64,000 bases of DNA from Chitinophagaceae bacterium (GTDB taxonomy: Bacteria > Bacteroidota > Bacteroidia > Chitinophagales > Chitinophagaceae), in NCBI GenBank assembly GCA_019745155.1, contig JAIETM010000012.1, forward strand, positions 1 to 64,000, given 5' to 3'. The notes under the pieces were generated by a model, which saw only the letters and a list, made by a program, of their open reading frames with translations, did no database searches and was not told the origin of the DNA. Both the position numbers and the translations under genes were made by a program. Below, in pieces: positions 16,065-53,515 of this stretch; the stretch's first letter is position 1, and each line of letters begins with the position of its first letter.

Positions 16065-16680
16065 ATACTAACCCAAACTGATAGCCTTGCGCTAGAAAAT
16101 GATCGATGGTCCTGGGTAAAGCATATTGCATACGTTGCCATGCTTTTTCGCTATCATGAAAAACAATAATACTACCGGGACGTACTGCTTTTTTCACTTG
16201 ACGCCAGCATTGTTCCGGTTGAAGCTGAGTATCAAAATCACCGCTTAATACATCCCACATAATGATGCGATACGCAAACTGTTGTTGCACAGCTTTGATT
16301 TGTGCACGGGTAATTCTGCCATAAGGTGGGCGAAACAAAGACGCATCAATATATTGTGTTGCAGTGAAAATATTTTCTAAATAATCTTCCCGACTGGTTT
16401 TCCAACCATTGCGATGATCTTGTGTGTGATTACCAGTCTGATGGCCCTCAGCCAAAATACGCTGATATATTTGTGGATAACGCTGCACATTCTTACCAAT
16501 ACAAAAAAAAGTTGCTTTGATGTTGTACTGCTTCAATAAGTCCAACACAAAAGGGGTTGCTACAGGATGAGGACCATCATCAAATGTAAGGTAGATGGTT
16601 TTGTTAGCAGCATTGCCCTTCCATTCCAGTGAAGGATAGATCCATCGAAACAAAGCAGGTGTGCGAACTGGATACCACAT
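16063..16680 (-). CDS. Polysaccharide deacetylase (NodB homology, CE4)
   Basis: The 205-aa protein is one NodB domain with all five motifs: TFDDGP (32-37), HTQDH (His85 and His89, metal ligands), RPPYG, WDVLSGDFD and IIVFHDS. It should remove N-acetyl groups from a polysaccharide such as peptidoglycan or chitin-like polymer. No clear signal peptide is seen, unusual for an extracytoplasmic enzyme. It starts 3 bp after the HIT gene and is probably co-transcribed with it. Confidence 0.88.
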   Translation of the reverse strand: MWYPVRTPALFRWIYPSLEWKGNAANKTIYLTFDDGPHPVATPFVLDLLKQYNIKATFFCIGKNVQRYPQIYQRILAEGHQTGNHTQDHRNGWKTSREDYLENIFTATQYIDASLFRPPYGRITRAQIKAVQQQFAYRIIMWDVLSGDFDTQLQPEQCWRQVKKAVRPGSIIVFHDSEKAWQRMQYALPRTIDHFLAQGYQFGLV

Positions 16681-39780: not shown

Positions 39781-41055
39781 ATGAAATACTCAGCCGGTTT
39801 TGCACCGGATGAACATCGTATTCAAAAATCGCAAATGTTGAATTGGGCCTCCCGGTTCAACATTTGTGTTTTACTGGACAACCATGGCTATGATTCGCCT
39901 CACAAGTCCAAAGAATGGCTATTGGCTGTAGGCGCCACCACTAGCTTTCAACCAACCGATACAGCAACGCTTGATGCATTCATGCAGGCACATCAAGGCA
40001 AATGGATATTCGGTCATATCAGTTATGAATACGGGCATACACTTATCGGTAAAAAAGCCAGAACAGAAGACTTTATCGGATTTCCCATACTACAATTCTT
40101 TTGTCCCGAAATAGTGATTGAATGCAGCAACGCACATCTGAAAATCTACAGCGATACAATACCCGTTGTACAAGTACTGGAAGCGATCCAATCGTGCACA
40201 CCGCAAAGCCCGCAATACCACAGTACAGTAAGACTTACGCCCAAATTATCTAAGCAAGCGTACATAGAGGCTATACAAGCTTTGAAAGGGCATATCAGCA
40301 GGGGCGATTGTTACGAGATCAATTATTGTCAACAATTTGCTGCAACCAACGCGTCTATCGACCCACTTCATGTCTATCATCAACTGAGTGCGGTTTCACC
40401 AACGCCGTTTGCAGCATTCTATCGCAATGAAGATAAATACCTACTCTGCGCTAGTCCGGAGAGATTCCTCAAAAAAACCGGTGAGACTTTAATCTCTCAA
40501 CCCATCAAAGGCACATTCAAGCGAAACCTGCAGAATGCTACTTTGGATGATATGCTGAAAACAGCTTTACAAAATGATCCCAAAGAACGCAGTGAAAATG
40601 TGATGGTAGTAGACCTTGTGCGGAATGACCTTAGCAGGGTTTGTTTACCAGGATCTGTACATGTTAGCGAATTATTCGGCATTTATAGCTTCCCTCAGGT
40701 GCATCAGATGATTTCTACCATTGAAGGCACTTTAAAACCAGGGCTTGGTTTCTCCGCTATATTGAAAGCGCTTTTCCCAATGGGTAGCATGACAGGCGCG
40801 CCAAAAGAAAGTGTGATGCAGCTGGTTGATGCTTATGAGCCCACACCAAGAGGCCTGTATTCAGGCACCATTGGCTATATCGCACCAAATGGTGATTTTG
40901 ATTTTAATGTAGTGATACGAAGCATCGTTTACAACGCAACACTACAGCATATCAGTTATCATGCAGGCAGCGGCATCACTTACTATTGTGATGCTGAAAC
41001 AGAATATCAAGAATGTTTGTTGAAGGCTGAAGCCATGTCTGTTGCACTAAGCTAG
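39781..41055 (+). CDS. pabB: Aminodeoxychorismate synthase component I
   Basis: The 424-aa chorismate-binding enzyme has the PabB-type PIKGT (Lys243) and GSMTGAPKES (about 334-343). It makes 4-amino-4-deoxychorismate for folate. PIKGT separates it from TrpE. No pabA or pabC is adjacent. It starts 9 bp after the acidic-protein gene, so the two may be co-transcribed. Confidence 0.9.
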   Translation: MKYSAGFAPDEHRIQKSQMLNWASRFNICVLLDNHGYDSPHKSKEWLLAVGATTSFQPTDTATLDAFMQAHQGKWIFGHISYEYGHTLIGKKARTEDFIGFPILQFFCPEIVIECSNAHLKIYSDTIPVVQVLEAIQSCTPQSPQYHSTVRLTPKLSKQAYIEAIQALKGHISRGDCYEINYCQQFAATNASIDPLHVYHQLSAVSPTPFAAFYRNEDKYLLCASPERFLKKTGETLISQPIKGTFKRNLQNATLDDMLKTALQNDPKERSENVMVVDLVRNDLSRVCLPGSVHVSELFGIYSFPQVHQMISTIEGTLKPGLGFSAILKALFPMGSMTGAPKESVMQLVDAYEPTPRGLYSGTIGYIAPNGDFDFNVVIRSIVYNATLQHISYHAGSGITYYCDAETEYQECLLKAEAMSVALS

Positions 41056-49181: not shown

Positions 49182-51602
49182 CTATTTACGGATTTCTGCA
49201 CCCAGCTCTTTTTCAAAAGCCTGAATCAGTTTGCCTACCATTGTATCAATCTCTTTATCGGTCATGGTTTTTTCTTCATCTAAGAAAGTAAAACTAATGG
49301 CCATAGATTTTTTATCTGCACCCAGCTTATCGCTTTCAAACACATCAAATAAACGCATGTCGGTCAGACGGCTAATCTTGGTTTGCTTCACTACCTGCTC
49401 CAATGCAGCATAGGTCGTTGAACGATTCACCACCATGGCTAAATCGCGCTGTACCGCTGGGAATTTGGATACTTCTGCATAAGTGATCTTGTGTTTAGCA
49501 GCCAGCATAAACAGCACCGCCAAATCAATATCCAAGAAATATACTTGCTGACGAATATCAAAGCCCTTCAATACAGCACCAGAAACAATGGATAGTTTAC
49601 CCAACACTTGCTTACCTGCACACAATTCAAAATCATGCCCCTGCTCGGCTGCTTTCACTGTAACATCGCTGATGCCCGCTAAGGCAGGAATAGCAGCTGC
49701 CAAACCTTTCAAACGATAGAAATCATGGGCTGCCGCTTTCTCATGCCAATTGTCTTCATGATTATTACCAGTGATGTAAACAGCCAGATGCGCTGTTTCA
49801 CTGTAGTCGCCGGGACCACTGGTAGCATAGGTCTTACCAAACTCAAACAATTGCAGATTGGTATTCTTACGGTTGATATTATATGCAATACACTCCAACC
49901 CACTTTGCAACATGGATGGTCTCAATACATCCAGATCAGCGCTGAGGTTATTGAGCATCTTCACAGTTGTACCCAAAGTGGCTTCATCAAAATATTTGCT
50001 ATTGGTAATGGAGTTGGTGAGTATCTCATGAAAACCCTGACCAGTTAAATTGCCGGCAATCTTTTCTTTCAGGCTTTCCTTCCAGCCATGTGCTTCCACT
50101 GATGGTGAAATAGTGATGCTGACAGGAATGTCAATGCTATCTAAACCATCTATACGCAGAATCTCTTCTACGATATCAGCAGGCAAACTAATGTCTGGTT
50201 TATGATACGGCACGGTGAGGCGAATCTCATCCATACCCTCTTTCGCAATCTCAAAACCCAAGCTGGTAAGAATACGCTTTACTGCATCTGGGTGATAATT
50301 CTTACCACTCAGCTTTTTCAGAAAATGATATTTCAGTGCAACTTCTGTTTTTTCTTTTGGCGTAGGATATACATCCACTACATCTGAACTGATATTACCA
50401 CCCGCTACCTCTTTGATCAATAAAGCAGCGCGCTTCAACACATTCACTGTATTAGAAATATCCACGCCTTTTTCAAAACGTGTGGCAGCATCTGTACGTA
50501 ATCCATGTCTCATGGAACTCTTACGAATACTTACCGGATGAAACCATGCACTCTCTAAGAAAATGGCTGTAGTGGTATCCTGCACACCGCTCTTAGCACC
50601 ACCAAATACACCACCGATACACATGGGTGTGTTGTTGCCATCGCAAATCATCAAATCCTCTGCACTCAGCTTTCTTTCTTTATCATCTAAAGTGATGAAA
50701 GCCGTGCCTTCTTCCAAACAACGCACGATAACCTGATTACCGCTGATAGCTGCAGCATCAAAAGCATGCAAGGGCTGTCCAGTTTCATGCAGGATATAAT
50801 TCGTAACGTCTACTATATTGTTGATTGGTCTTACACCAATAGCCTGCAATTTGTTTTTCAACCAAGCTGGTGAAGGTTGTACAGTAACGCCAGAAATACT
50901 TACACCCGCATAACGCGCACAAGCTTCCGGATTATCGATACGCACTGCAATTGGTAAATCGGTTGTATCTGCCTTGAAACCATTCGCATAAGTTTGCTTT
51001 GGTCTGGTCTCCTGTTTGTTATGGTGTGTAAGATAAGCGCATACATCGCGTGCCACACCCAAATGACTCATGGCATCCATACGGTTGGGTGTGAGACCAA
51101 TTTCATAAATCCAGTCTTGGTACACTTCAAAATATTCCGCAGCAGGTGTACCGGGCACCAAAGTATCCGGTAAGACCATAATACCTGCGTGACTGCTACC
51201 CAAACCCAATTCATCTTCGGCGCAAATCATACCATGACTCTCCACTCCGCGAATCTTAGCCACTTTCATGGTGAGCGGTTCGCCTTCTGTTGGATAAATC
51301 GTGGTGCCAACAGTTGCTACCGCCACTTTTTGTCCGGCAGCCACATTTGCTGCGCCACAAACAACCTGCAATGGCGCATCAGCACCAATATTTACAGTGG
51401 TAATTTTGAGCTTATCTGCATTGGGATGTTGCTCGCAGGTAAGCACTTCACCAATCACTACACCCTTTAGTCCGCCACGGATGCTCTCATAAGCTTCCAT
51501 ACTTTCCACTTCCAATCCAATGGATGTTAGGATGCGGGATAACCGCTCCGGCTCTATCTGCTCGGGCAAAAATTCACTTAACCAATGATAGCTGATCGTC
51601 AT
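49182..51602 (-). CDS. pheT: Phenylalanyl-tRNA synthetase beta subunit
   Basis: The 806-aa subunit has the N-terminal tRNA-binding OB fold (GVVIGEVLTCEQHPNADKLK), the B3/B4 editing domain, B5, the inactive catalytic-like core and the C-terminal FDX-ACB domain (SKFPAVQRDLAMVV). The ATG at 51602 gives the standard start MTISYHWLSEFLP; 38 extra upstream codons are rejected, as a TATCTTTG box lies within them. pheS is not in the window. Confidence 0.95.
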   Translation of the reverse strand: MTISYHWLSEFLPEQIEPERLSRILTSIGLEVESMEAYESIRGGLKGVVIGEVLTCEQHPNADKLKITTVNIGADAPLQVVCGAANVAAGQKVAVATVGTTIYPTEGEPLTMKVAKIRGVESHGMICAEDELGLGSSHAGIMVLPDTLVPGTPAAEYFEVYQDWIYEIGLTPNRMDAMSHLGVARDVCAYLTHHNKQETRPKQTYANGFKADTTDLPIAVRIDNPEACARYAGVSISGVTVQPSPAWLKNKLQAIGVRPINNIVDVTNYILHETGQPLHAFDAAAISGNQVIVRCLEEGTAFITLDDKERKLSAEDLMICDGNNTPMCIGGVFGGAKSGVQDTTTAIFLESAWFHPVSIRKSSMRHGLRTDAATRFEKGVDISNTVNVLKRAALLIKEVAGGNISSDVVDVYPTPKEKTEVALKYHFLKKLSGKNYHPDAVKRILTSLGFEIAKEGMDEIRLTVPYHKPDISLPADIVEEILRIDGLDSIDIPVSITISPSVEAHGWKESLKEKIAGNLTGQGFHEILTNSITNSKYFDEATLGTTVKMLNNLSADLDVLRPSMLQSGLECIAYNINRKNTNLQLFEFGKTYATSGPGDYSETAHLAVYITGNNHEDNWHEKAAAHDFYRLKGLAAAIPALAGISDVTVKAAEQGHDFELCAGKQVLGKLSIVSGAVLKGFDIRQQVYFLDIDLAVLFMLAAKHKITYAEVSKFPAVQRDLAMVVNRSTTYAALEQVVKQTKISRLTDMRLFDVFESDKLGADKKSMAISFTFLDEEKTMTDKEIDTMVGKLIQAFEKELGAEIRK

Positions 51603-51624
51603 TTCGGTTGCGCTTAAATGGCGC

Positions 51625-51632
51625 CAAAGATA
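51625..51632 (-). promoter_or_regulatory. -7 box of pheT
   Basis: TATCTTTG on the minus strand matches TAnnTTTG, 22 nt before the pheT ATG at 51602. No -33 TTG is at the expected distance. Confidence 0.45.
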
Positions 51633-51709
51633 ACCAAATGCACCCGTTGAAATGCATGTAGAATCTTTCAAAAAGCAGGATTCAACAGTTTCCGCGTCCA
51701 AAAAGGACA

Positions 51710-51818
51710 TGTGCATTACTCTGTGTAGAAAAGCTGCATAAAAAGTGTAGCTTGTGGATAAGCACCATTCCTCCTGTTCATAAGCCTTAGCGAAAAATGT
51801 GCATTACGTTGTGAAGAG
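51710..51818 (-). promoter_or_regulatory. Cluster of DnaA-box-like 9-mers (candidate oriC or DnaA regulatory site)
   Basis: Read on the plus strand as TGTGNATAA (the complement of TTATNCACA) there is one perfect box, TGTGGATAA (51753-51761). Four boxes have one mismatch: TGTGCATTA (51710), TGTGTAGAA (51722), TGTTCATAA (51775) and TGTGCATTA (51798). Two weaker ones start at 51733 and 51810. All face the same way, with start-to-start steps of 12, 11, 20, 22, 23 and 12 bp, close to multiples of a helical turn. The cluster lies between the divergent pheT and dnaB genes. The rest of the gap (51603-51946) holds no gene and no marked AT-rich tract. Confidence 0.55.
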
Positions 51819-51946
51819 CTGGCTATTAAGTTTCCAGCACAAATGCCGCAGGTGAGTGGTCTGCCCTTTATATTCGCATCCCTTTCGCCGTAACATTGGC
51901 TTAACATCGGTGGAAGATTGTGCTAAACCCCTAAAGGCTGAAGAAG

Positions 51947-53515
51947 ATGGATCTTACCGGACTTAATAAAGACAGAAAGACGAGAAGAAAAGCAGGCGTT
52001 GATCTTAGTACCATGGTGTATGGTAAAGTACCGCCTCAGGCAAAGGAATTGGAAGAAGCCGTACTGGGTGCCATCATGCTGGAGAAAAGTGCTTTTGATA
52101 CTGTTACTGAAATCCTGAAGCCGGAATGTTTTTACGTTGAAGCCAACCAACTTATTTACCGAGCCATGCAGGGCTTGCAGCAAAAAAGCATGCCCATCGA
52201 TATCCTTACTGTTGTTGAGGAACTGAAAATGCGTGAGCAATTGGATATGGTGGGCGGCCCTTACTATGTTACCAAGCTGACCAATGCCGTAGTTTCTACC
52301 GCCAATATTGATGCCCACGCACGTATTGTGTTGCAGAAATTTATACAGCGTGAACTGATCCGCATCAGTGGTGAAATCATTGGCGATGCATATGAAGACA
52401 GCACCGATGTATTCGATTTGCTGGATGAAAGTGAGGGTAAGATGTTCAATATCACCAACAATTACCTAAAGAAGAACTTTGAGGATATTGGTAATGTATT
52501 GGCAAAAACCATTAACCGTATTGATGAACTGCGTAACCGCAAGGAAGACATCTCCGGTGTTACCAGTGGTTTTGCTTCTATGGATCGCGTGACTTATGGC
52601 TGGCAGCGTACCGACTTAATCATTCTCGCTGCACGTCCTGCCGTGGGTAAAACCGCATTTGCGCTGAACCTCGCACGTAACGCGGCATTGAACCCGATAA
52701 AGCCTACACCTGTTGGTTTCTTCTCTTTGGAAATGAGTGCCGCACAGTTGGTACAACGTATCCTGAGTGCAGAGAGTGAGATACTAATGGAAAAAATTTC
52801 GCGTGGTAAACTGGAAGATTACGAATACCAGCAATTGCATACCAAGGGTATCAAACGCTTGGAACAAGCCCCACTCTATATTGATGATACTGCGGCTTTG
52901 AACATTTTTGAATTCCGTGCCAAAGCCAGACGATTGGTGAACAAACACAATGTAGGTTTAATCATCATCGACTATCTGCAATTAATGAGTGGCTCTGGCG
53001 AACGTAATATGAACCGTGAACAGGAAATCAGTAATATCTCTCGTTCACTGAAAGCCTTGGCCAAAGAATTGAATATCCCCATCATAGCATTGAGCCAGTT
53101 GAGTCGTGCAGTAGAAACCAGAAAGGAAAGCAAGATGCCGCAATTGAGTGACCTCCGTGAATCGGGTGCCATTGAACAGGATGCGGATATGGTGATGTTC
53201 ATTTATCGTCCTGAATACTACGAAATTGGTACCAATGAAATGGGCGAAAGTACCAAGGGCGAAACCCACGTACGTATTGCCAAGCACCGTAATGGTGGCT
53301 TGGAAACCATTAAGTTCAAAGCCAATCTGGCCATTCAAAAATTCGATGAATGGGATGAAGGTCCGGGTAATCTCGGTCCCGGTAGCTGGAAACCCGTTGG
53401 TCCATCAGCCACACCCGGTGCAGGTAATGAAGGCGGTCGATTCTTCATTCAGAGCAGTAAGATGAATGGTGGCGAGTTCGACGATGGCATGGATAACGAA
53501 GTACCTCCATTCTAA
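51947..53515 (+). CDS. dnaB: Replicative DNA helicase DnaB
   Basis: The 522-aa hexameric helicase has the N-terminal primase-interacting domain (about 28-130), a linker helix and the RecA-like domain with Walker A RPAVGKT (230-236), Walker B IIIDYLQLM and the DnaB H4 motif near SQLSRAVETR. The Gly/Pro-rich C-terminal tail (about 455-522) is typical of Bacteroidota. It lies beside a DnaA-box cluster. Confidence 0.97.
   Translation: MDLTGLNKDRKTRRKAGVDLSTMVYGKVPPQAKELEEAVLGAIMLEKSAFDTVTEILKPECFYVEANQLIYRAMQGLQQKSMPIDILTVVEELKMREQLDMVGGPYYVTKLTNAVVSTANIDAHARIVLQKFIQRELIRISGEIIGDAYEDSTDVFDLLDESEGKMFNITNNYLKKNFEDIGNVLAKTINRIDELRNRKEDISGVTSGFASMDRVTYGWQRTDLIILAARPAVGKTAFALNLARNAALNPIKPTPVGFFSLEMSAAQLVQRILSAESEILMEKISRGKLEDYEYQQLHTKGIKRLEQAPLYIDDTAALNIFEFRAKARRLVNKHNVGLIIIDYLQLMSGSGERNMNREQEISNISRSLKALAKELNIPIIALSQLSRAVETRKESKMPQLSDLRESGAIEQDADMVMFIYRPEYYEIGTNEMGESTKGETHVRIAKHRNGGLETIKFKANLAIQKFDEWDEGPGNLGPGSWKPVGPSATPGAGNEGGRFFIQSSKMNGGEFDDGMDNEVPPF

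Follow-up and report, generated by a model that had tools for sequence, protein, structure and literature searches.

The cluster of DnaA boxes lying between pheT and dnaB in this Chitinophagaceae genome is probably, with odds of roughly three in four, a regulatory array of the dnaB promoter that has been conserved through the Chitinophagaceae, and its best reading is a DnaA-type promoter array, not an origin. The finding is wider than the dnaB cluster of one window alone, the window being the whole stretch of 64,000 nucleotides that was analysed (C4:1-64000 of genome G000, which amounts to 3.17 Mb in 27 contigs). The model proposed here is that several boxes facing the same way on one side of the helix would allow DnaA to bind as a head-to-tail oligomer, and that this oligomer may touch or organise RNA polymerase at a promoter whose predicted -7 element mostly follows the boxes at a distance of 50-120 bp. 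Since the sites are placed upstream of the putative core promoter and share its helical phase, they would more probably activate dnaB than repress it, and expression of dnaB would be expected to track the amount or the nucleotide state of DnaA.

Profile search bore out the identities given to the surrounding genes by the first-pass annotation, namely dnaB, pheT, rsmE and dnaX. The replicative DNA helicase gene dnaB occupies 51947..53515 on the forward strand (TIGR00665 above cut-off); its product is 70-86% identical to the best 80 records in named genomes, with Sediminibacterium sp. and S. magnilacihabitans included in the top four matches (83-86%), and it is identical to the DnaB of a same-genus genome, G060. 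The divergent neighbour pheT lies on the reverse strand at 49182..51602, its start being placed at about 51602 because the profile match begins at ORF residue 39. All seven sites claimed by the annotation (51710, 51722, 51733, 51753, 51775, 51798 and 51810) are present on one strand in the gap between these two gene starts, and the steps given between them, 12, 11, 20, 22, 23 and 12 bp, are exact. The number of boxes depends on the consensus chosen, TTATCCACA or TTATNCACA. The claim of one perfect and four one-mismatch boxes stands when judged against TTATNCACA, in which the fifth base is free, as 51753 then has 0 mismatches and 51710, 51722, 51775 and 51798 have 1 each, but it does not stand against TTATCCACA, to which 51753 alone comes within one mismatch. 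The two boxes described as weaker, 51733 and 51810, do have 2 mismatches to TTATNCACA in a count made by eye.

With a PWM and a box cut-off of 8.5 (part of the scores being obtained with the own genus left out), the strongest of these reverse-strand sites is the perfect DnaA box TTATCCACA at 51753..51761 (16.7), accompanied by TTATGAACA at 51775..51783 (11.5) and by TAATGCACA at both 51798..51806 (10.7) and 51710..51718 (9.9). The weak box at 51810..51818 scores 8.3, slightly below the cut-off, and TTCTACACA at 51722..51730 is a weak PWM match at 5.4, also below it; the box-like site at 51733..51741 is doubtful and gives no PWM match of at least 5. The window holds two short-step pairs, 51710/51722 and 51798/51810, each with a 3-bp gap and each with one weak partner. 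A further perfect TTATCCACA was observed at 16472-16480 of the window, with no second TTATNCACA-like site within 500 bp.

Single boxes are without excess in the window (72 found versus a mean of 88 in shuffles), and it is their clustering that sets the site apart. Five same-strand sites within 109 bp are unique to the dnaB gap in the 258,183-bp contig, as are four and even three, and the opposite strand of that contig never reaches three sites in 109 bp. Simulated contigs (n=12) contained at most three same-strand sites in 109 bp, and simulated regions of local composition (n=300) at most two. When a genus-free motif, built from 92 sequences with the own genus excluded, was applied to 1,938,183 sampled bases, at least four same-strand sites per 120 bp occurred at three places: the dnaB gap of the window, its orthologue in G060, and the region upstream of nadA in a further family genome, G049. 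A chance origin of the cluster was rejected on the strength of contig uniqueness, the simulations and this genus-free motif scan.

Conservation of the boxes upstream of dnaB in relatives, which had been put forward as a check, was found to extend through the Chitinophagaceae. The dnaB set comprised 112 family loci, from which 18 redundant ones were dropped to give 94 upstream regions of 350 bp; the redundancy filter required less than 35% shared 10-mers, the sequences still sharing ancestry, the family searches gave the best 30 loci at most each, of 58-60 genomes with a match, and some dnaB loci have little upstream DNA. Across these 94 regions, sites with at most one mismatch to TGTGGATAA number 129 on the dnaB strand versus 3 on the opposite strand. 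PWM sites number 240 versus 11, a ratio that is partly circular, as these 94 regions also served to train the PWM; the fixed-word count of 129 to 3 is free of this circularity. The refined motif is TGTGNATAA, followed by C or G and then by C. At least one site is present in 91 of the 94 regions and at least two in 79, the exceptions being three regions without a site and twelve with one; in G049 there is just one dnaB box (locus L008). Four more family loci, drawn from a phylum sample, contain 10 sites versus 1 on the opposite strand. The excess is restricted to the 350 bp before dnaB, where box density is 8.0/kb on the dnaB strand and 1.4/kb on the other, and the remaining seven 350-bp bins between -1400 and +1400 hold 1-21 sites per strand. 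The array is tied to dnaB rather than to pheT: no divergent pheT was recognised by regular expression in 36 of the 94 loci, and there the array persists with 79 sites versus 3. In 24 sampled loci of other families the one-way array was not found: sites there are scarce or occupy the opposite strand, the latter being the case upstream of dnaB in family f3.

The arrangement of the conserved sites follows the turn of the helix. Among 385 site pairs at most 110 bp apart the best period is 10.5 bp (resultant 0.69), with preferred distances of 11/12, 20-22, 31-33, 41-44 and 53-55 bp; close pairs fall at 11 bp (21 pairs) and 12 bp (13 pairs), with 1 at 10 bp and 0 at 13 bp. The same upstream regions contain TATATTCG, which agrees with the Bacteroidota -7 consensus TAnnTTTG, as given in the available part of PMC7366714, except for a C in place of the third T. 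This -7-like element, scored as the 9-mer TATATTCGC, is matched at 8/9 or better in 51 of the 94 regions versus 1-6 of 94 for five scrambled 9-mers, although it is not secure in every genome, since relaxing the threshold to 7/9 raises the count to 70 of 94 regions but gives 36 for the reverse-strand control. In the 51 regions with a single 8/9 element (the 43 of 94 without a single 8/9 match being left out), the 127 boxes situated 20-200 bp upstream of the element keep a 10.5-bp phase with the element (0.77) but not with the ATG (0.18), the distance between element and ATG varying from 32 to 219 bp. Box starts concentrate at distances of 72-74, 93-95 and 114-116 bp from the element, on its upstream side. 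The corresponding feature in the window is TATATTCGC at 51869..51877 on the forward strand, a TAnnTTTG-like element that may represent the dnaB promoter, and four PWM boxes start 71, 94, 116 and 159 bp upstream of it. Because the boxes phase with the -7-like element and not with the start codon, the array appears to be locked to a putative promoter on the DNA, upstream of the transcript. A sigma-70 scan of the dnaB upstream region gave no promoter-like site, the outcome to be anticipated for a Bacteroidota-type promoter. It also returned one terminator-like site at 51848-51864 (mean of 0.5 in shuffles). Conserved boxes tied to the predicted promoter of one gene are what a DnaA-regulated promoter would present, and DnaA control of dnaB, which the first-pass annotation had offered as its alternative reading, gains support from the conservation, the phasing and the anchoring to this candidate promoter.

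As to the protein that occupies the array, the motif is a DnaA box with a free fifth base, and it agrees in its flank with the boxes of the likely oriC described below. A C at +11 is found in 48 of 130 likely-oriC boxes from 15 genomes versus 357 of 1505 in the background (p=0.0014) and in 116 of 262 dnaB boxes (p=3e-11). A point against the agreement is that G at box position 5 is more frequent in the oriC boxes (74/130) than in the dnaB boxes (91/262; background 368/1505). The DnaA of the window genome carries, in its C-terminal part, GRDHTTVIH, which we take to be the canonical DnaA helix segment with a role in box reading. In PMC11317965, E. coli DnaA is described as favouring pairs of boxes separated by 2-3 bp, which corresponds to steps of 11-12 bp. 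From the motif, its flank, the helix segment and the pair spacing we infer that DnaA would be the binder of the dnaB array.

A search of 60 family genomes for exact GTGNATAA pairs 20-22 bp apart yielded 28 matches, distributed over 19 genomes, versus 16 for the reversed pattern. Six are upstream of dnaB (5 genomes), six upstream of mraZ (5 genomes) and two in the intergenic region of nadA and a SurA-like gene, and the 14 at other places are about as many as chance would produce (the neighbouring genes being read from sequence and the mraZ places checked by PF02381). The mraZ set consisted of the best 30 loci, of which 6 with an unparsed start were dropped; sites facing against the gene are present in all 24 parsed loci at least once and in 21 at least twice. 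This array lies mostly 150-220 bp upstream with steps of 10, 11 and 21 bp (64 sites versus 18 opposite), and the mraZ of the window genome (C14, ~49.2 kb; L257) carries five array sites. Separate from the array and nearer the gene, as a rule 47-60 bp before mraZ, GTGGGA words occur in 19 of the 24 loci; repeats of this type are presumably the MraZ box. Upstream of dnaA no array was found in 33 parsed loci (34 less one with an unparsed start), where sites are few (11 on one strand and 4 on the other). In family f5, which is Flavobacteriaceae-like (the name is a guess), dnaB has tandem TTATYAACA words 20-21 bp apart, and TTATNNNCA sites number 103 on the dnaB strand versus 5 opposite in 41 loci. 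A search for TTATYAACA pairs in this family found 53, spread over 37 of 40 genomes, versus 4 for the reversed control, and among the 30 pair loci listed, with genes recognised by eye, 22 lie beside an HU-like gene, one has only its neighbour fmt, six are at dnaB and one is elsewhere.

The dnaB and mraZ arrays could conceivably be occupied by a protein other than DnaA whose site resembles the DnaA box. The mraZ arrays step by 10-11 bp rather than 11-12 bp, which is not exactly the E. coli rule, and the related but different tandem word at dnaB and the HU-like gene of family f5 could be that of another regulator. However, such a binder is unlikely, as the word is TTATNCACA including its free base, the flank preference is common to the origin boxes, and the array word differs from the MraZ box, which sits apart from it. 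DnaA binding might instead serve titration or recycling, with the adjacency to dnaB incidental. A datA/DARS-type locus is a box cluster with an IHF (or Fis) site that acts on the nucleotide state of DnaA, large numbers of DnaA molecules can be bound by box clusters lying outside oriC, and the present cluster is the only one in its contig. Nevertheless, a datA/DARS-like function seems decidedly improbable, given that the phase is locked to the promoter-like element and not to the gene start, that the association with dnaB survives a change of neighbour, and that a second array exists upstream of mraZ.

The annotation had favoured a chromosomal replication origin, and a dense DnaA-box cluster between divergent genes, adjoining replication genes, does resemble one. 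However, an origin at dnaB was rejected by GC skew and must be considered very improbable. Skew was computed on sampled 20-kb stretches and not on whole chromosomes, with C4 taken in 10-kb bins; in contig C4 it is negative on both flanks of the site, except at 180-200 kb. The latter region (C4:180000-200000) combines low GC (0.35-0.39) with reversed skew and is perhaps a recent insertion. In G060, sampled in 29 stretches of C1 and 5 of C2, negative skew extends from about 0.64 to 2.38 Mb, interrupted by a few stretches that are close to zero or slightly positive; the skew turns at 2.37-2.40 Mb and is positive from 2.40 Mb, and the cumulative minimum falls at 2.397 Mb (2.20-2.42 Mb stretch examined). 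The densest box cluster in that 2.20-2.42 Mb stretch comprises seven boxes of mixed orientation at C1:2,371,617-2,372,065, 25 kb from the skew minimum, flanked by nadA and a SurA-like peptidylprolyl isomerase gene that matches several isomerase models, all below their cut-offs. With dnaB of G060 at 1,617,413 and dnaA at 40,769, the skew minimum and origin-like cluster lie ~754 kb from dnaB, so that the cumulative GC-skew check proposed by the annotation, run on these sampled stretches, speaks against its origin. The skew sign of another genome, G021, changes between 0.515 and 0.66 Mb, a range that includes nadA (0.639 Mb) and not dnaB (0.238 Mb). The skew of G049 is noisy; the 20 stretches sampled from this genome, dnaB being covered by one of them, contain a single cluster of at least four same-strand boxes, which lies upstream of nadA.

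The observation that no AT-rich unwinding tract is obvious in the pheT-dnaB gap proved accurate, as the gap averages 0.44 GC and its richest 60 bp reach 65% AT, the 87th percentile of the contig, whereas regions upstream of nadA reach 73-90% AT in 16 genomes. Of the features of an oriC, the gap has the box cluster and lacks the GC-skew switch and the AT-rich unwinding element. Box density in the 600 bp upstream of nadA is 14.4/kb, on both strands, versus a background of 1.3 (15 genomes), and the intergenic, mixed-orientation cluster between nadA and the SurA-like gene is the likely oriC of the Chitinophagaceae. By the same nadA locus, the oriC of the window genome should be at about C16:47,066-47,506, outside the window, nadA being at C16:47,556 and 7 of the 8 sites found lying 50-490 bp upstream of it. 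The dnaA gene is likewise outside the window, as had been noted, on contig C1; an origin there was rejected, the C1 skew being unswitched at ~30 kb and boxes upstream of dnaA being few. The general remark that oriC often lies away from dnaA agrees with the Chitinophagaceae data. Finally, the suggestion that the repeats are an RNA leader element of the dnaB mRNA, which would account for every repeat facing the same way relative to the gene, is barely credible, as the repeats lie upstream of the putative promoter at helical spacing and those of mraZ face against their gene, and it was rejected with an Rfam scan of 51400-52100 that gave no match at E<=1.

A regulatory array at the dnaB promoter may be part of a larger scheme, in which the DnaA of Bacteroidia would act as a transcription factor with a small regulon that couples replication to the supply of helicase (dnaB) and to the division cluster (mraZ) through helically phased, promoter-locked, one-way arrays and does not control its own gene, the regulon of the Flavobacteriaceae-like family having shifted to dnaB and the nucleoid protein HU with a drifted box, TTATYAACA; this extension is tentative and somewhat short of an even chance. 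The findings provide a major phylum with a compact DnaA regulon, as a candidate that can be put to the test, with a periodic promoter architecture that could be broken by half-turn insertions, as well as a candidate oriC for a whole family in the stretch between nadA and the SurA-like gene, separate from dnaA as well as from dnaB. Most work on how bacteria match the supply of helicase and division proteins to replication has been done outside Bacteroidota. A search of the open literature found, among the matches listed, no report that dnaB or mraZ is under DnaA control in Bacteroidota, nor of the phased, promoter-locked array and its spread in that phylum.

Links between DnaA and dnaB are already known in Caulobacter and Mycobacterium. 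In PMC8203912, predicted DnaA boxes are described for dnaB of Caulobacter crescentus, which belongs to the DnaA regulon (Hottes et al., 2005, as cited there). Boxes predicted upstream of dnaB and membership in a DnaA-dependent set make this a close parallel, although Caulobacter belongs to another phylum, and the passages on it mention no phased one-way array. A division-gene target such as mraZ also has parallels, as the same source reports that DnaA binds at ftsZ in Caulobacter and at ftsL in B. subtilis. In M. tuberculosis, the region upstream of dnaB is one of five strongly DnaA-bound regions according to PMC7738170, and was shown by a binding experiment, whereas the Chitinophagaceae array is supported by conservation and geometry. 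The oriC of Thermotoga maritima has a directional DnaA-oligomerising region (PMC10316083, in part) and resembles the present proposal in the directional binding of DnaA to an array; however, that array is an origin, and the dnaB array lies in a predicted promoter region far from the likely origin. The double DnaA boxes of E. coli, as described in PMC11317965, are tandem and closely spaced like the short-step pairs found here, but the Chitinophagaceae arrays usually comprise 2-4 boxes, with a maximum of 6 and with steps of about 21 and 42 bp being the most frequent, and are phased with a Bacteroidota-type element.
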